Source: Geodermatophilus amargosae
GTDB taxonomy: Bacteria > Actinomycetota > Actinomycetes > Mycobacteriales > Geodermatophilaceae
DNA length: 64,000 nt
Direction: 5' to 3'
Assembly (NCBI RefSeq): GCF_900116515.1
Contig: NZ_FPBA01000002.1
Location: 372,001 to 436,000 of the forward strand
The translations under genes and the position numbers were made by a program. Below, in pieces: positions 11,549 through 50,610 of the stretch. The first letter of the stretch is position 1, and the number at the start of each line of letters is the position of its first letter. The notes under the pieces are model-generated. The model did no database searches. It was not told where the DNA came from and worked only from the letters and a program-made list of their open reading frames with translations.

Positions 11549-13006
11549 TCAGTCGGGCAGGTCGTCCTCGTCGAGGGCACCGGCCGCCACCAGGACGTCG
11601 GTGGCGGCCGGGAGGTCGGCCAGCGCCGTCGCCAGGTCCGCCGGCGTGGCGATCGACCAGGCGTTGACCTGCACGTAGCAGCGCAGCGCCGCGTCGAACG
11701 GCGCGGGACCGGCTGCCTCGCGGGCGGCGAGCAGCGCGGCGCCGCCCTTGTCGTAGACGGTCTCGAAGTACGCGTCGGTGTCGGCGAACTCGTCCATCGC
11801 CGCACCGACGTCGCCCGGGCCCGCCAGCACCCGGTCGAGGGCCTCCTGCGAGACCTGCCCGTCGACGCGCTCGGCGTAGGTCGCGAACGCCTCGTCCAGC
11901 CACGGGTCACGGAACTGTGAGTCGCCGACCATGCCGTAGAACCACATGTGCGCGACCTCGTGCTCGAGGACGGCCCGGCTGGCGCCGGCCAGCAGGATCG
12001 AGCTCGGGTACTCGATGCCGCCCCCCGCGTCGGGCAGCAGCGGCACCGTGAGCGTGTCGTAGGGGAAGGCCCCGAACCGGTCGGCGAGCTCCGTGACGTC
12101 CTCGCTGGCCCAGTCGGCCAGCTCCCCGGGACCGGTCTCCGACCCGGGCAGCACCCCGGTGGTGATCTCGACGCCGCCGGGTGAGGTGAGGGTGGCGGTG
12201 CGGAACTCGCCGACGGCGACGCTGACGTCGCGGGCCACCGGCTCGCGGGAGGTCCAGGTGCGCCGGCCGTCGTCGGGCTCCGAGGGCTCGCCCTGCGCGC
12301 CGGTCATCAGCACGGTGAGCTCCTCGGGCGCCGAGACGGTGACCGTGGTGTCGGCGACCGGGCTGCTCGCGGTCTCGCCGAGGATGCCGACGAAGGGGTC
12401 GCGCGCCCAGCCGACGCCGGGCTCCCACGCCAGCAGGGGGAAGCCGCTGGCCCACCAGGACACGTCCTCGGCCGTGCCGAGCCGCTCGAACCCGCTGCCG
12501 CCGAGGGAGACGGTGAAGTCCAGCTCCACCTCGGTGGACTCGCCGGCCCCGAGCTCGCCGTCGAACTGCAGGACGTAGAGCCCACCCGGTCCCTCAGCGC
12601 CGGCGTCCTCGTAGCCGGCCTGGTCGACGTCATCGCCGCGGACGTCGTCGACGGTGATCCGGTTGCCCCGCTCGGCGGCGCCGGGGCCGTTGGGCACCAG
12701 CCGGAACACCATCTCGTCGGTGTCCACGTCGGGGGTGAAGACGACGGTCTCGGTGCCCGTGACGGTGCGCCCGTCGTCGGAGAGCCGGAAGTCGAGGTCG
12801 ACGACGGGCCGGTCGGGGTCGGGCGCGGCACGCTCGGCCGGGCAGGCGGTGTCGTCGCTCTCCTCGCCCTCGTCGGGCGGGGCGGGCGAGGAGGGGGCGG
12901 CCGACGGGGTGTCGTCCGCGGCCAGCGTCTCGGTGAACGAGGTGCCGCAGCCGGCGAGCAGGAGCAGCGCCGCGACGGCGGCCGGGACGGTCCGCCGCCG
13001 CGTCAT
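11549..13006 (-). CDS. M1-family zinc metallopeptidase lipoprotein
   Basis: Exported zinc aminopeptidase-like lipoprotein (485 residues). A lipobox LLAGC places the lipidated Cys at residue 20, followed by a Ser/Pro/Asp-rich linker. The gluzincin motif HEVAH (349-353) is followed after 18 residues by the third ligand Glu372 (WLDEAFATY), exactly the M1 spacing. The exopeptidase GAMEN motif is replaced by GGGIEYPS, so strict aminopeptidase action is doubtful. Its ATG overlaps the end of hadB by 4 bases, so it is translated with the hadA-hadB unit, although no functional link to fatty acid synthesis is obvious. Confidence 0.9.
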   Translation of the reverse strand: MTRRRTVPAAVAALLLLAGCGTSFTETLAADDTPSAAPSSPAPPDEGEESDDTACPAERAAPDPDRPVVDLDFRLSDDGRTVTGTETVVFTPDVDTDEMVFRLVPNGPGAAERGNRITVDDVRGDDVDQAGYEDAGAEGPGGLYVLQFDGELGAGESTEVELDFTVSLGGSGFERLGTAEDVSWWASGFPLLAWEPGVGWARDPFVGILGETASSPVADTTVTVSAPEELTVLMTGAQGEPSEPDDGRRTWTSREPVARDVSVAVGEFRTATLTSPGGVEITTGVLPGSETGPGELADWASEDVTELADRFGAFPYDTLTVPLLPDAGGGIEYPSSILLAGASRAVLEHEVAHMWFYGMVGDSQFRDPWLDEAFATYAERVDGQVSQEALDRVLAGPGDVGAAMDEFADTDAYFETVYDKGGAALLAAREAAGPAPFDAALRCYVQVNAWSIATPADLATALADLPAATDVLVAAGALDEDDLPD

Positions 13007-14532: not shown

Positions 14533-17109
14533 TCAGGCGCGGACGAAGAGCCGGCGGTGCTGGGCGCCCGGCGCGGCCGAGCGGACGCCGGTGCGCGCGA
14601 GCAGCCACTTCTCCAGCACGTCGTCCGCGAGCGGCCGGCTGACCAGGAAGCCCTGCAGCTTGTCGCAGCCCATCTCGGTGAGCAGCTTGCGGGTCAGCTC
14701 GTCCTCGACGCCCTCGGCCACCACGCGCAGGCCGAGGTTGTGCGCCAGCTCGATGATCGAGCGGGCGATGAACGACTCGCCCTGGCTGGTGGACATGCCC
14801 AGCACGAAGGACTTGTCGATCTTGACCTCGTCGATGGGCAGCTGGCGCAGCTGCGACAGCGACGAGTAGCCGGTGCCGAAGTCGTCCATCGACAGCCGCA
14901 GGCCCAAGGCGTGCAGGTCGGTCAGGACGTTGCTGGAGCGCACCGAGTCGTCGACGACGCTGCCCTCGGTGAGCTCGAGGATGAGCAGCTCACCCGGGAC
15001 GCCGTGGCGGCGCAGCGCCCGCTGCACCCGCTCGACGAGGTCCGGCTCGGCCAGGCAGCGCGCCGAGAGGTTCACCGCCACGGACAGGGCGATGTCCTGG
15101 TCCAGCCACCGCCGGCAGCGCGCCAGCGCCAGGTCGAGCACGTGGTCGGTCAGCGGGCCGATGCGGCCGATCTGCTCGGCGAGGTGGATGAAGTCGTCCG
15201 GCGGGATCGCCCCGAAGCGCGGGTGCGCCCAGCGCACGAGGGTCTCCACCGACACGATGTCGGAGGTCCGCGCGTCGATGATCGGCTGGAAGACGACGCT
15301 GATGTGCCCGTCGGCCATCGCCTGCTCGAGCTCGGTGCCCAGCTGCAGGCGCCGCAGGCTCTGCTGGTCGAGCACCTGGTGGTAGCTGGCCACGCCGCTG
15401 CTCTCCGAGGCGGCCGCCAGCAGCGCGACGTCGGCCCGCTGCATGAGCGTGCCCGAGTCGGTGCCGTGCACTGGTGCGGCGGCCACGCCGACGGTGAGCG
15501 TGACCTCCAGGTCCAGGCCGGCGACGCGCGCCCGGGTGGAGGTGGCCTCGCGCAGCCGGCGGGCGGCGCGGTCGGTGGCGGGCAGGGACAGCCCAGGCAG
15601 CAGGACGGCGAACTGCTCGCCCTCCATGCGCGCCACGAGGGCGTCCGGCGGCGCGTGCTCGCGCAGCAGGCCCGCGGTGACCAGGAGCAGCTCGTCGGCG
15701 GCGGCGTGCCCGAGGGTGTCGACGATCTCGGTGTGGTTGTCCAGGGCCGCCAGCACCAGGCCGGCCCGGGCGCCGACGGGGTCGGCGTCGAGGAGCTGGT
15801 CGATCTCGGCGGCCAGCCGCTGCCGGTTGGGCAGCCCGGTGAGCCGGTCGTGGTCGGCGTCGTAGCGGATCTGGGTGAGCAGCTGCTGCTGGCGGATGGC
15901 CGCGTTGACGTGCGTGAGCATCGAGTCCAGCGCGGAGCGGTCGGTGCCGGTGAAGGACACGACGTCGCTGCGCCGGTCGCAGACCTCCAGGTAGCCGGGC
16001 TCGCCGGCCGCCGTCGCCACCGGGGCCCCGAGGACCTCCTCGGCACCGCGGCGGGCCAGGGCGGCGGCCTCGGCGGGCGTCGCCCGCCCCGCGGCCACCA
16101 GGACCGGCTCGGACGAGCCGGGCGTCAGCACCCGCTGGCGCAGGACGTCCTCGGGGTCGGCCGGCCCGTCGTACCAGCTGACGCCGCCGTCACCGGCCAC
16201 CACCAGCCGTGGCGGCTCGTCGAGGTAGGGCGGCAGCCACAGCCCGACCTTGTCGGCGTTGAGCAGTTCCTGGACCGCCAGGACGATCTGCAGCGGCCCG
16301 TCGGCGTCCGGCCGGACCTGCTCGACCCGGCGGGCGAACTCGTAGACCTGCTGCACGGTGCGCCGCTCGCGCAGGGCCGAGGCCGACAGCCGGAAGACCG
16401 CGATCATCGCCGCGAGGATCGGCAGGATGAGCAGCCAGGCCCAGCCGTTGTCGCGGGTCAGCAGGACCGCCCCGACGCCGGCGGCCACGCTGAGCGGCCC
16501 GACGAGGAACTGCGGCACCAGGGCGCCGATCCAGAACTGCCGGTCCAGCCGGCCGTCGATCAGCGTGATGATGGCGGCGACACAGCCCGCCGAGACGATG
16601 TCGGCGACGGTGACGGCCACGACCAGGGCGGCCCAGGTCAGCGGCGAGTCGATGTCCGCCGTGGGGAAGAGCTGCAGGACCGCCACCGCCGCGGTCACCT
16701 CGAGGACGGCGAGCGCGACGTTGAAGACCGTCTTCATGGGCGCGTAACGCTGGTGGACGAGGACGACCACGACGGCGGCACCCCGGACGACGGCGGCCCA
16801 CAGACCGCCGAGCTCGACCAGGGCGATGACGACGACCAGCTCGATCGGTGTCACCTGGAAGGTCTGGCGCCGCACCTCGAGGTCCAGTTGGACCGACTCG
16901 GTGATGACGAAGGCGAGGAAGAGCGCCAGGAGCCCGAACACCGAGACGGGCTGCCAGGTGGGCAGCAGGACGAGGGCTCCGAGGACCAGGGCGAGCACAG
17001 CCAGCGCACCGATCGGCAGCCACGGCCGGGGCGCCTTCACGGCAGGCTGCGCGGGAGCGGGAGCCACGGGCTCGCAGCGCTCGACGGCATGGGCCTGGGG
17101 CTCGGCCAA
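14533..17109 (-). CDS. Membrane protein with degenerate GGDEF and intact EAL domain
   Basis: Putative cyclic-di-GMP phosphodiesterase (858 residues from the chosen start). About seven membrane helices occupy residues 30-240, then a GAF-like linker, a GGDEF domain (about 417-575) and an EAL domain (about 590-840). The diguanylate cyclase signature GGDEF is changed to MEGEQ (495-499), so synthesis is unlikely. The EAL side keeps ETLVRW (622-627), NLSAR, ELTEG, DDFGTG (742-747), KIDKSF and AEGVE, all needed for hydrolysis. The start is uncertain: TTG with weak AGGG is chosen; a GTG 23 codons upstream abuts a hairpin. A short repeat-peptide gene precedes it on the same strand. Confidence 0.9.
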   Translation of the reverse strand: MAEPQAHAVERCEPVAPAPAQPAVKAPRPWLPIGALAVLALVLGALVLLPTWQPVSVFGLLALFLAFVITESVQLDLEVRRQTFQVTPIELVVVIALVELGGLWAAVVRGAAVVVVLVHQRYAPMKTVFNVALAVLEVTAAVAVLQLFPTADIDSPLTWAALVVAVTVADIVSAGCVAAIITLIDGRLDRQFWIGALVPQFLVGPLSVAAGVGAVLLTRDNGWAWLLILPILAAMIAVFRLSASALRERRTVQQVYEFARRVEQVRPDADGPLQIVLAVQELLNADKVGLWLPPYLDEPPRLVVAGDGGVSWYDGPADPEDVLRQRVLTPGSSEPVLVAAGRATPAEAAALARRGAEEVLGAPVATAAGEPGYLEVCDRRSDVVSFTGTDRSALDSMLTHVNAAIRQQQLLTQIRYDADHDRLTGLPNRQRLAAEIDQLLDADPVGARAGLVLAALDNHTEIVDTLGHAAADELLLVTAGLLREHAPPDALVARMEGEQFAVLLPGLSLPATDRAARRLREATSTRARVAGLDLEVTLTVGVAAAPVHGTDSGTLMQRADVALLAAASESSGVASYHQVLDQQSLRRLQLGTELEQAMADGHISVVFQPIIDARTSDIVSVETLVRWAHPRFGAIPPDDFIHLAEQIGRIGPLTDHVLDLALARCRRWLDQDIALSVAVNLSARCLAEPDLVERVQRALRRHGVPGELLILELTEGSVVDDSVRSSNVLTDLHALGLRLSMDDFGTGYSSLSQLRQLPIDEVKIDKSFVLGMSTSQGESFIARSIIELAHNLGLRVVAEGVEDELTRKLLTEMGCDKLQGFLVSRPLADDVLEKWLLARTGVRSAAPGAQHRRLFVRA

Positions 17110-17188
17110 CGTGACCCTGTCTTCTGGATGGGGCGGGCGTCGGCAGAGGCTAACAGCGCACGCCGTGTCCGTCCTCACCCTTCGGGGG

Positions 17189-17211
17189 CGGTCGCCGGAC
17201 GCCGGCGACCG
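17189..17211 (-). terminator. Hairpin behind the NRWG peptide gene
   Basis: Perfect 10-bp stem (17189-17198 with 17202-17211) and a 3-nt loop; five more pairs form with a small bulge (GGGGG/CCCCC). It begins about 25 bases after the peptide stop codon and lies before the GGDEF/EAL gene. It either ends a single-gene transcript or acts as an attenuator between the two. Confidence 0.6.
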
Positions 17212-17235
17212 CCACCCCCGAGGCGTTCCCCGGGG

Positions 17236-17346
17236 TCACACGCCCCAGCGGTTGCCGCGGCCCCACCGGTTGCCGCGGCCCCACCGGTTGCCGCGGCCCC
17301 AGCGGTTGCCGGGCAGGGACTGGGTCGAGGACATGGTGGTGCTCAT
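17236..17346 (-). CDS. 36-residue Trp/Arg-rich peptide with four NRWG repeats
   Basis: A short frame not matching any family I know. It encodes MSTTMSSTQSLPG, then NRWGRG three times and NRWGV. It starts with ATG four bases after GAGGAGG and ends with TGA, followed by a hairpin. Predicted mature part: 4 Trp and 7 Arg, no acidic residues, strongly cationic. At the DNA level it is an 18-bp unit repeated four times; the Arg codon of NRW varies (CGC, CGG, CGG, CGC) while the protein repeat is kept. The Ser/Thr-rich head followed by repeats resembles a leader plus core of a ribosomally made peptide, but no modification enzyme is adjacent. Alternatives: small protein in c-di-GMP signalling, Trp/Arg-codon leader peptide, or chance frame over a tandem repeat. 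Confidence 0.55.
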   Translation of the reverse strand: MSTTMSSTQSLPGNRWGRGNRWGRGNRWGRGNRWGV

Positions 17347-17616
17347 GACGCCTCCTCAGGCATGAATGGACAGCACTCGGATTGCGGCTGTCACCCAGGC
17401 GCGGGGGCAGAGCGTCGTTCGTGTACGGACCGCGCCCGGAACCCTCGTGCCCTCACTCGGGCGAGGCAAGCACGCAGGATCACGAGGGGGTGACGACCCG
17501 TTATGTCGTGACTCAGCGTGTCGGATGATCAGCAAGACGTCATCGGACGGGTGACATGTGAGACCCATGGGGTGGACCGGTCCTGTGGACGGCAGTCCGT
17601 GGGCTGCGTCCGTCCC

Positions 17617-18820: not shown

Positions 18821-19699
18821 TCAGTCGCGGCCGGGTTCCTCCGCCATGCGTTCCAGCCGGGCGATCCGCTCGGCCATGGGCGGGTGCGTGGCGAACAGCG
18901 CCGCCAACCCGGAGGCCCGCACCGGCGCGGCGATCATGAGGTGGCTCTGGGCCACCAGCCGGTCCTCCGGGGGCAGCGGCCGCGCGTCGGCGCCCTCGGA
19001 GATCCGGCGCAGGGCGCTGGCGAGGGCCTGCGGGTCGCCGCAGAGCCGGGCGCCGTCGGCGTCGGCGTCGTACTCGCGGCCGCGGCTGACCGCCAGGTGC
19101 ACCAGCCCCGCGGCCAGGGGACCGAGCAGCACGAGCATCAGCGTCCCGAGCACGCCGGCGCTGTCGCGGTCGTCGTCGGGGCGGTCGCCGAACAGCGAGG
19201 CGAACGTGGCCAGCGAGGCCACGTAGGTCACCACGCTGGCCAGGGCGCCGGCGATGCAGCTGACGAGGACGTCGCGGTTGCGCACGTGCGAGAGCTCGTG
19301 GGCCAGCACCGCCCGCAGCTCGCGGCGGTCGAGCAGCTCGAGGACGCCCTGGGTGCAGCAGAGCGCGGCGCGGCGCGGCGTGCGCCCGGTGGCGAAGGCG
19401 TTGGGCTGGTCGGTGGGGCTCACGTACAGGCGGGGCATCGGCTGGCGGGCCTGCGTGGCCAGCTCGCGGACCATCGCGTAGAGACCCGGCGCCTGGGTCT
19501 CGGTGACGGGGATGGCCCGCATCGCACGCAGGGCCAGCCGGTCGGAGCCGTACCAGGCCCAGCCGTTGACCCCGAGGGCGACGACGAGCGCGACGAGCAG
19601 CCCGCTCCGGCCGCCCACCACGGCACCCGCGGCGAGGGCGAGACCGGCCACCAGTCCGAGCAGGAGCGCGGTCCGCACCCCGTTGCCCCATCGCCGCAC
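18821..19699 (-). CDS. htpX: HtpX-like membrane zinc metalloprotease
   Basis: Membrane protease of the M48B family (292 residues), which degrades misfolded membrane proteins. Two helices (about 9-46) precede the zinc motif HELSH (134-138, VLAHELSHVRNRD), then two more helices, and the third ligand Glu in GREYDADADGARL. The family N-terminus is usually NGxxTALLLG; the chosen GTG gives MRRWGNGVRTALLLG and a normal length. A GTG seven codons downstream is the alternative; neither has a strong binding site. Transcribed away from korA. Confidence 0.9.
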   Translation of the reverse strand: MRRWGNGVRTALLLGLVAGLALAAGAVVGGRSGLLVALVVALGVNGWAWYGSDRLALRAMRAIPVTETQAPGLYAMVRELATQARQPMPRLYVSPTDQPNAFATGRTPRRAALCCTQGVLELLDRRELRAVLAHELSHVRNRDVLVSCIAGALASVVTYVASLATFASLFGDRPDDDRDSAGVLGTLMLVLLGPLAAGLVHLAVSRGREYDADADGARLCGDPQALASALRRISEGADARPLPPEDRLVAQSHLMIAAPVRASGLAALFATHPPMAERIARLERMAEEPGRD

Positions 19700-19843
19700 C
19701 CTCCGAGAACGGAACGACGGGGACCGCCGTTCCCCGGCGTCCCCTGCGATGCCGGTCACGGACGGGACCGGTCCGGAAGAGGCTCCCCCCGGAGGACGTT
19801 GTGCTCGGCAGTCCGCCCCGCGCAGGCCCCGTCCGTGGTCCGC

Positions 19844-19878
19844 GTCACGTGACCAGCCGCGACACCGCCCCGTAACCT
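19844..19878 (+). promoter_or_regulatory. korA promoter with overlapping palindrome
   Basis: TGACCA (19850-19855) and TAACCT (19873-19878) are separated by 17 bases and lie 24 bases before the korA ATG. The -35 overlaps the perfect 10-bp palindrome GTCACGTGAC (19844-19853), which could be an operator for an unidentified regulator. Confidence 0.5.
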
Positions 19879-19902
19879 GGGTGGTTGGAGGTACCACGCC
19901 CG

Positions 19903-50401: not shown

Positions 50402-50424
50402 GGTGGTGATCTCCCGATCGCCGC

Positions 50425-50610
50425 CGGCGAGGTGAGCTGTCGGGTTCGGGCGATCGGTGCCCGGCCGCGGTCCGCGGCTTCACCCCGAGACGCGCTCGGA
50501 CAGGCCCCCGTGGCCGTCGCGCGCCGGAAGTGGTTCCCCCACCCCTGCCCTGGGGAGTTGACGTGCGCGACCGGTGGGCAGGGTTTGGCGGACCGGCGCC
50601 GCGCTCTCTC
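50425..50610 (-). ncRNA. c-di-AMP riboswitch (ydaO-yuaA type)
   Basis: Leader RNA of the Rpf-like gene. In the minus sense it carries the hallmarks of the ydaO-yuaA class in order: AAACCCTGCC, GGCAGGGGTGGGGGAACCA (from 50558 to 50531), GGGGTGAAGCCGCGG (about 50486-50472), CGCCCGAACCCGACAGCTCA and CCTCG (about 50452-50428). This class binds c-di-AMP and in actinobacteria regularly precedes rpf or other wall hydrolase genes, turning them off at high c-di-AMP. Ends are approximate. Confidence 0.85.

Follow-up and report, generated by a model that had tools for sequence, protein, structure and literature searches.

Several described systems release or build short peptides from longer precursors. 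Precursors of the yeast alpha-factor type carry an ER signal peptide and Kex2 sites and give rise to mating factors with known receptors. Signalling of the RRNPPA type in Firmicutes resembles the locus described here in its very short linear peptides and in a receptor gene that adjoins the precursor gene, and differs from it in its single-copy secreted precursors and cytoplasmic receptors. We know of no membrane GGDEF/EAL protein that is paired with a tandem tryptophan peptide. The locus belongs to Geodermatophilus amargosae (Geodermatophilaceae) and was read in a window of 64,000 nucleotides, the whole stretch of DNA analysed (contig NZ_FPBA01000002.1, positions 372,001 to 436,000), where a minus-strand mini-gene of four identical units precedes a gene for such a protein, referred to below as the partner.

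The peptide gene, its leader and its partner

A preliminary description of this DNA had reported a 36-residue ORF of NRWG repeats with its own ribosome binding site and a following hairpin, all of which is borne out by the sequence, by homologues and by the synonymous pattern (Table 1). GAGGAGG lies 4 bases before the ATG, and the product contains four Trp, seven Arg and no acidic residue. It had also been remarked that Arg codons differ between units while the protein repeat is kept; indeed, exchanges between CGC and CGG are the sole codon differences among the four NRWG cores. The stem-loop downstream reaches -35.1 kcal/mol in a scan of GC-rich DNA run without shuffled control. No second copy of the peptide stands above noise in the G. 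amargosae genome (next match E 0.03), a Pfam/NCBIfam scan of 16 peptides gave nothing above the cut-off (two single-member matches only, E 0.09 and 3.4), and comparison with plasmids, phages and solved structures gave no match. A search of open-licence PMC text returned nothing pointing to the peptide or to Trp tails beside GGDEF/EAL genes.

Table 1. Features of the peptide locus in the G. amargosae window
Feature	Position	Strand	Remarks
Tandem-unit peptide gene	17236..17346	-	ATG at 17346 to TGA at 17236; 36 residues, four GNRWG copies joined by single Arg; product MSTTMSSTQSLPGNRWGRGNRWGRGNRWGRGNRWGV
GC-rich stem-loop	17181..17224	-	3' of the peptide stop codon; terminator-like, without U run
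Conserved 5' leader including start codon	17344..17447	-	Model R1, E 3.2e-24; next match in the genome 0.014
Leader hairpin 1 (GGCGCGG...CCGCGCC)	17396..17437	-	Limits approximate; around the near-invariant GCTCTGCCCCC block
Leader hairpin 2 (GACAGC...GCTGTC)	17369..17392	-	Pairing kept via A-U / U-A swap between species
Possible -35 element TTGCCT	17464..17469	-	Conserved upstream; from the alignment, by eye only
Partner gene	14533..17115	-	About seven membrane helices, GAF-like region, degenerate GGDEF (EGEQF), EAL domain

About 100 nt 5' of the start codon are conserved across the family; this leader and the switching of units between species were both missed by the preliminary description. 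The leader model finds one strong copy in the G. amargosae genome and, in a sample of 249 genomes of the order, strong copies in 39 family genomes and weak matches only in 11 others; in five of these 11 genomes, and at a second weak match in a family genome, none of the matches precedes a Trp peptide. No leader or riboswitch family among the Rfam covariance models fits. Two helices were picked by hand from alignment A3, and their pairing is kept in 90.9% of cells against 88.7% in shuffles, the structure being named and tested on the same alignment. Covariation is modest, with 10 cells changed on both sides against 2.4 in shuffles (3 pairs); the number of pairs changed on both sides was reached by 84 of 500 shuffles, and RNAalifold on the first leader alignment gave a weak hairpin only. 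Attenuation by pairing between leader and terminator was considered and set aside on the sequences, the leader block being unchanged where the stem-loop sequence changes. Motifs of the form GTGAC/GTCAC are repeated 5' of the promoter-like region in many species (for example at window positions 17480-17600) and are possibly regulator sites. Elsewhere in the window (50407-50573, minus strand) a c-di-AMP riboswitch of the ydaO/yuaA leader type scores above the Rfam gathering score.

The start codon of the partner is uncertain, as 17115 is not a start codon and an in-frame TTG lies at 17109. Its EAL domain retains the motif residues, which we take to match the catalytic motif list of c-di-GMP phosphodiesterases, and on these motifs that activity is predicted for the protein. 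The model of the N-terminal half (pLDDT 77.8) includes the GAF-like region, and its PDB matches include the GAF domains 3cit and 4g3k at modest similarity (TMt 0.65 and 0.63, E about 0.006); a full-length model built without alignment was of no use (pLDDT 42.8).

In all 92 family loci counted the peptide comes first and the partner follows at 51-218 nt, measured to the assumed start, so that the check for a conserved EAL neighbour suggested earlier gave a positive answer. The wider gene order is also conserved in the family (tRNAs, MaoC-like, YajQ/DUF520, Tad), and because the whole neighbourhood is syntenic, adjacency among family members says little on its own. Of the 52 loci with both peptide and Tad, however, 22 have them more than 1.5 kb apart, and there the partner stays next to the peptide. 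Minus-strand genes for an M48 peptidase (18821-19897) and an M1 peptidase (11549-13006) lie within 6 kb of the peptide and are candidate processing enzymes; a relative of the M48 gene is present in many family loci. A gene of about 700 residues, WXG-like by eye, stands between peptide and Tad on the strand of the peptide in several genera (L069:7471-9513, L077:7236-9347). A second relative of the partner, in a Geodermatophilaceae genome (L378, G048), has no tandem Trp gene upstream.

Unit uniformity and unit switching in Geodermatophilaceae

A counterpart of the peptide was read in 95 of the 112 family genomes searched, with one to five copies of the unit, a search for homologues of varied repeat number having been proposed earlier; 92 of these genomes enter the counts. 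The profile search of the 112 genomes gave a match at E 0.1 or better in 91, some of them false. Sixty regions were fetched, of which 55 held a readable peptide, and 14 earlier loci brought the number to 69; a further 26 genomes were picked mainly for a missing or weak peptide match, and 25 of them had the GGDEF/EAL gene, 23 with the peptide upstream. The resulting 92 distinct genomes (69 + 23) are used in all counts, and three more peptides (L055, L057, L059) were read outside this set. The partner is present in L175, where the peptide was not found within only about 300 nt of upstream sequence, and in L176, where no such peptide but a short ORF with three Trp and no regular repeat was seen; one of the 112 genomes has no partner match, and 14 lay outside the closer examination. 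In a named collection, the partner search returned 56 loci, 55 of which carry the peptide (53 by script, two by reading). These belong to Geodermatophilus, Blastococcus, Klenkia, Modestobacter, Trujillonella and Goekera, together with a Geodermatophilaceae scaffold, a Frankiales MAG and a record labelled as unverified Bacillus; the 56th holds a remote Marinobacter protein. In the profile searches beyond the family, where no more than 20-26 candidates per genome were scored, weak matches (E up to 0.01) appeared in 17 further genomes. Another three outside matches turned out on reading to be repeats of byte-identical DNA that lacked the leader, and were dismissed as chance.

The family unit can be written R-[G x K/R W s], identical within a peptide and switching between species. 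Among the 272 units of 91 peptides (L169 left out) the W is invariant, R stands at W-4 in 266 and K or R at W-1 in 255, W+1 is confined to G, S, T, N and A, and at x, where K, R, D and E are absent, 14 residue types occur; all 181 internal units have R at W+2. In two more species W-1 is Q and the peptide has five units. The peptide terminates directly after W+1 in 28 of 92 family members, and one member (L174) has a single unit only.

At x, codons differ synonymously between units in 28 of 90 genes and non-synonymously in one, where the expected synonymous fraction is 0.24 (p 3e-17), and the other variable unit positions show non-synonymous between-unit differences in 0 to 2 genes. Judged from the codons, such a pattern implies that the frame is translated and that all units of one gene are required alike, which rules out a chance ORF or a repeat kept at the DNA level. 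Since homologues across the family also share the kind of repeat, the leader and the position, the 36-residue ORF is not a chance reading, and these codon comparisons establish a conserved, selected and translated frame. A tree built from the N-terminal half of the partner calls for at least 37 changes at x, 34 at W+1, 20 at W-1 and 24 in copy number. Uniform units within each gene despite so many changes of x are what one would foresee if every unit has to fit a single partner specific to the species.

Tryptophan arrays beside related partners in other families

Of 44 genomes chosen from other families, 15 contain relatives of the partner; a profile search of 394 genomes of the class found such relatives in 44, two being Geodermatophilaceae. 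Many of these genomes have several copies. A tandem Trp array of at least three units by a strict test lies just upstream in 28 of 73 related loci outside the family, in ten families counted from genome labels; the 73 are the loci with enough upstream sequence, seven others being too short and four dropped as duplicates or family members. Arrays were seen on the opposite strand in 3 of 73 loci, all of which also have the sense-strand array. The window together with 20 family loci, family peptides left out, gives a background of 5 in 5305 ORFs, a figure for single ORFs as against loci in the 28 of 73. In the flanks it is 2 of 2749 ORFs, namely the Trp-tailed gene of L381 and the opposite strand of L366, a region that is also one of the three opposite-strand cases. 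The strict test replaced a looser first one with a background of 2.6% (137/5327 ORFs). The remaining 45 of 73 partners have no array by this test, among them copies whose paralogues in the same genome do have one; one or two units stand in some of these loci, and seven GRRWS in L341 escaped the strict test. In L381 about 890 nt separate the end of the Trp-tailed gene from the GGDEF/EAL gene downstream, a wider gap than in the counted loci.

These arrays are mostly (GxxWx)n tails of long genes, and two of them reach 23 and 19 units. All five array carriers that were scanned are subtilases (Peptidase_S8), with N-termini that look by eye like signal or membrane segments; besides its tail, the subtilase in each of L366, L368 and L369 has a single GxTWG/N-like unit before an N-terminal membrane segment. 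Mini-peptides also occur upstream of relatives (DGGSWT x4, DGNTWT x5, GALWG x2 and a TPGTGWH repeat x4), and six short peptides found next to other-family partners, each with a hydrophobic stretch near the N-terminus, end in W-x, a set picked by eye and without background rate. The pairing of Trp units with this kind of protein extends beyond the family: what is constant is the Trp unit and the membrane GGDEF/EAL protein, not the protease. Arrays beside relatives of the same enzyme suggest an undescribed pair of peptide signal and receptor.

In eight genomes two or more partners have an array next to them, and in seven of these genomes the units differ between the copies: GLRWN, GRRWS and GLTWR in G419 (one copy without array), GSSWR, ARSWR and SQSWS in G402, GAGWR and SRSWR in G446, GLRWN and GRRWS in G433, GTRWG and ARSWR in G385, GSSWA and GKAWS in G469, and GNAWS/GAAWS against GASWT in G390 (one copy without array), where a little GASWT is found in both arrays. 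GLRWN and GRRWS are common to corresponding copies of G419 and G433. The shared GASWT of G390, and G424 with GATWS in both paralogues, count against a pair-specific reading.

Interpretation, alternatives and known systems

The explanation that we favour, with confidence about evenly balanced by doubt, is that the peptide is a multi-copy precursor of a pentapeptide signal and that the adjoining membrane GGDEF/EAL protein is its cognate receptor and output enzyme. The conserved RNA leader would control production of the precursor, and cutting at the single Arg spacers on which the proposed unit G-x-[K/R]-W-[S/G/N/T/A] is strung would give identical five-residue units ending in W-x. These may then cross the membrane and bind the partner's membrane part or its GAF-like region, and the bound unit would change its predicted c-di-GMP phosphodiesterase activity. 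Release of five-residue units fits the Arg spacers and the W-x ends, as a peptide that ends right after W+1 has the same C-terminus that inner units would acquire once their Arg is removed. Likewise, a ligand matched to its receptor fits units that are uniform in a gene, change between species and are mostly separate for paralogues. As in a pheromone precursor, several identical short units are joined by conserved basic spacers, and the unit varies between species and is uniform inside the precursor. That the peptide is a small partner of the neighbouring protein had already been offered in the preliminary description, and it gains support from the 92 family loci and from the tandem Trp genes before 28 of 73 others. 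More tentatively, and at rather less than an even chance, the findings may reflect an undescribed actinomycete system in which many membrane GGDEF/EAL receptors are addressed by tandem Trp pentapeptides, carried on a subtilase tail, a short secreted peptide or an Arg-spaced mini-precursor, and in which paralogous pairs mostly have different addresses, so that several channels feed c-di-GMP in parallel.

Counting against the signal reading are the 45 array-negative loci, the single unit of L174 and the lack of a signal peptide on the family precursors, where the highest 12-residue mean hydropathy is 0.76 (92 peptides) against 1.95-3.09 in the six short peptides of other families. Export would be unnecessary if the uncut chain itself bound the GGDEF/EAL partner (or RNA, DNA or c-di-GMP) as a multivalent ligand, with a strength given by unit number times unit strength, an unlikely alternative that nevertheless deserves weight. 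The larger x is, the fewer the copies (r -0.42, p 3e-5 in independent contrasts, on volume and interface hydrophobicity scales), all 22 cases with F or W at x have two copies, and 84 of 92 peptides hold 3 or 4 aromatic residues. This relation, which is not predicted by release of single units and also counts against the signal reading, fits a multivalent chain as well, and the alternative is kept for that reason. However, the contrast is weaker on the Kyte-Doolittle scale (r -0.20, p 0.06), and paired tests reach only p 0.06 when aromatic x is set against a copy number of two or less (six pairs) and show no effect of hydrophobic x on copy number; in the copy-number table L169 was entered with the wrong x. 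Moreover, arrays of 23 and 19 units outside the family speak against such a chain, which by itself leaves the sameness of x across units unexplained. It is rather improbable that the arrays are tails binding the cell surface or wall, with the family mini-gene left over from such a tail or competing with it in soluble form: the C-terminal position in subtilases with signal- or membrane-like N-termini agrees with this, but the family peptide has neither carrier nor hydrophobic N-terminus and is yet strictly selected, and wall binding has no need of distinct units beside paralogues.

Modification of the peptide is more doubtful again. The preliminary description had considered a precursor of a ribosomally made, modified or antimicrobial peptide, and the repeated units on single-Arg spacers agree with a precursor, whereas no modification enzyme was found among the profiled neighbours and a cationic charge is not general. 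The W-x-R present in nearly every unit presumably resembles three-residue cyclophane motifs, which an enzyme encoded at another locus, radical-SAM or other, could cross-link. However, the sole SPASM-domain match in the G. amargosae genome is the mycofactocin maturase (TIGR03962, 650 bits), and none of ten profiled neighbouring proteins, two of them without Pfam match, is a known peptide-modifying enzyme; this possibility appears quite improbable. A cationic Trp/Arg antimicrobial peptide is scarcely to be expected: the 92 family peptides have net charges of +3 to +9, but the DGGSWT and DGNTWT arrays found next to relatives of the partner in another family are acidic, and of the neighbours profiled none was recognised as an immunity or export gene. 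Equally hard to credit is the earlier suggestion of a leader peptide controlling a hairpin, its Trp/Arg codons attenuating transcription or translation of the GGDEF/EAL gene. The position before that gene, the Trp codons and the stem-loop in between would suit it, but all unit residues including x, and not the regulatory codons only, are kept synonymously, and in other families full-length subtilase genes carry the array as their tail.

Returning to the precursor of pentapeptide signals, a close likeness lies in the fungal Kex2-processed repeat proteins and yeast alpha-factor, which, according to PMC7329392, also have highly repeated tandem short units that are cut out of one precursor and a repeat that is strongly diverse between lineages. 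Unlike alpha-factor, the system described here is bacterial, leaderless in the family as to export, spaced by one Arg and partnered by a GGDEF/EAL protein. Multi-core RiPP precursors of the microviridin type also hold several cores per precursor but, according to PMC5934393, use a dedicated peptide cyclase, none of which was found among the profiled neighbours. With membrane GGDEF/EAL proteins of degenerate GGDEF, the EAL motif residues are common to the partner and c-di-GMP phosphodiesterases. For a c-di-GMP enzyme with an uncharacterised membrane sensor, a candidate ligand can here be read from the adjoining gene in dozens of species, and the natural unit swaps and sets of paralogous pairs make specificity directly testable. 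If the proposal is true, tandem multi-copy signal precursors, familiar from fungi, would be added to bacterial peptide signalling.
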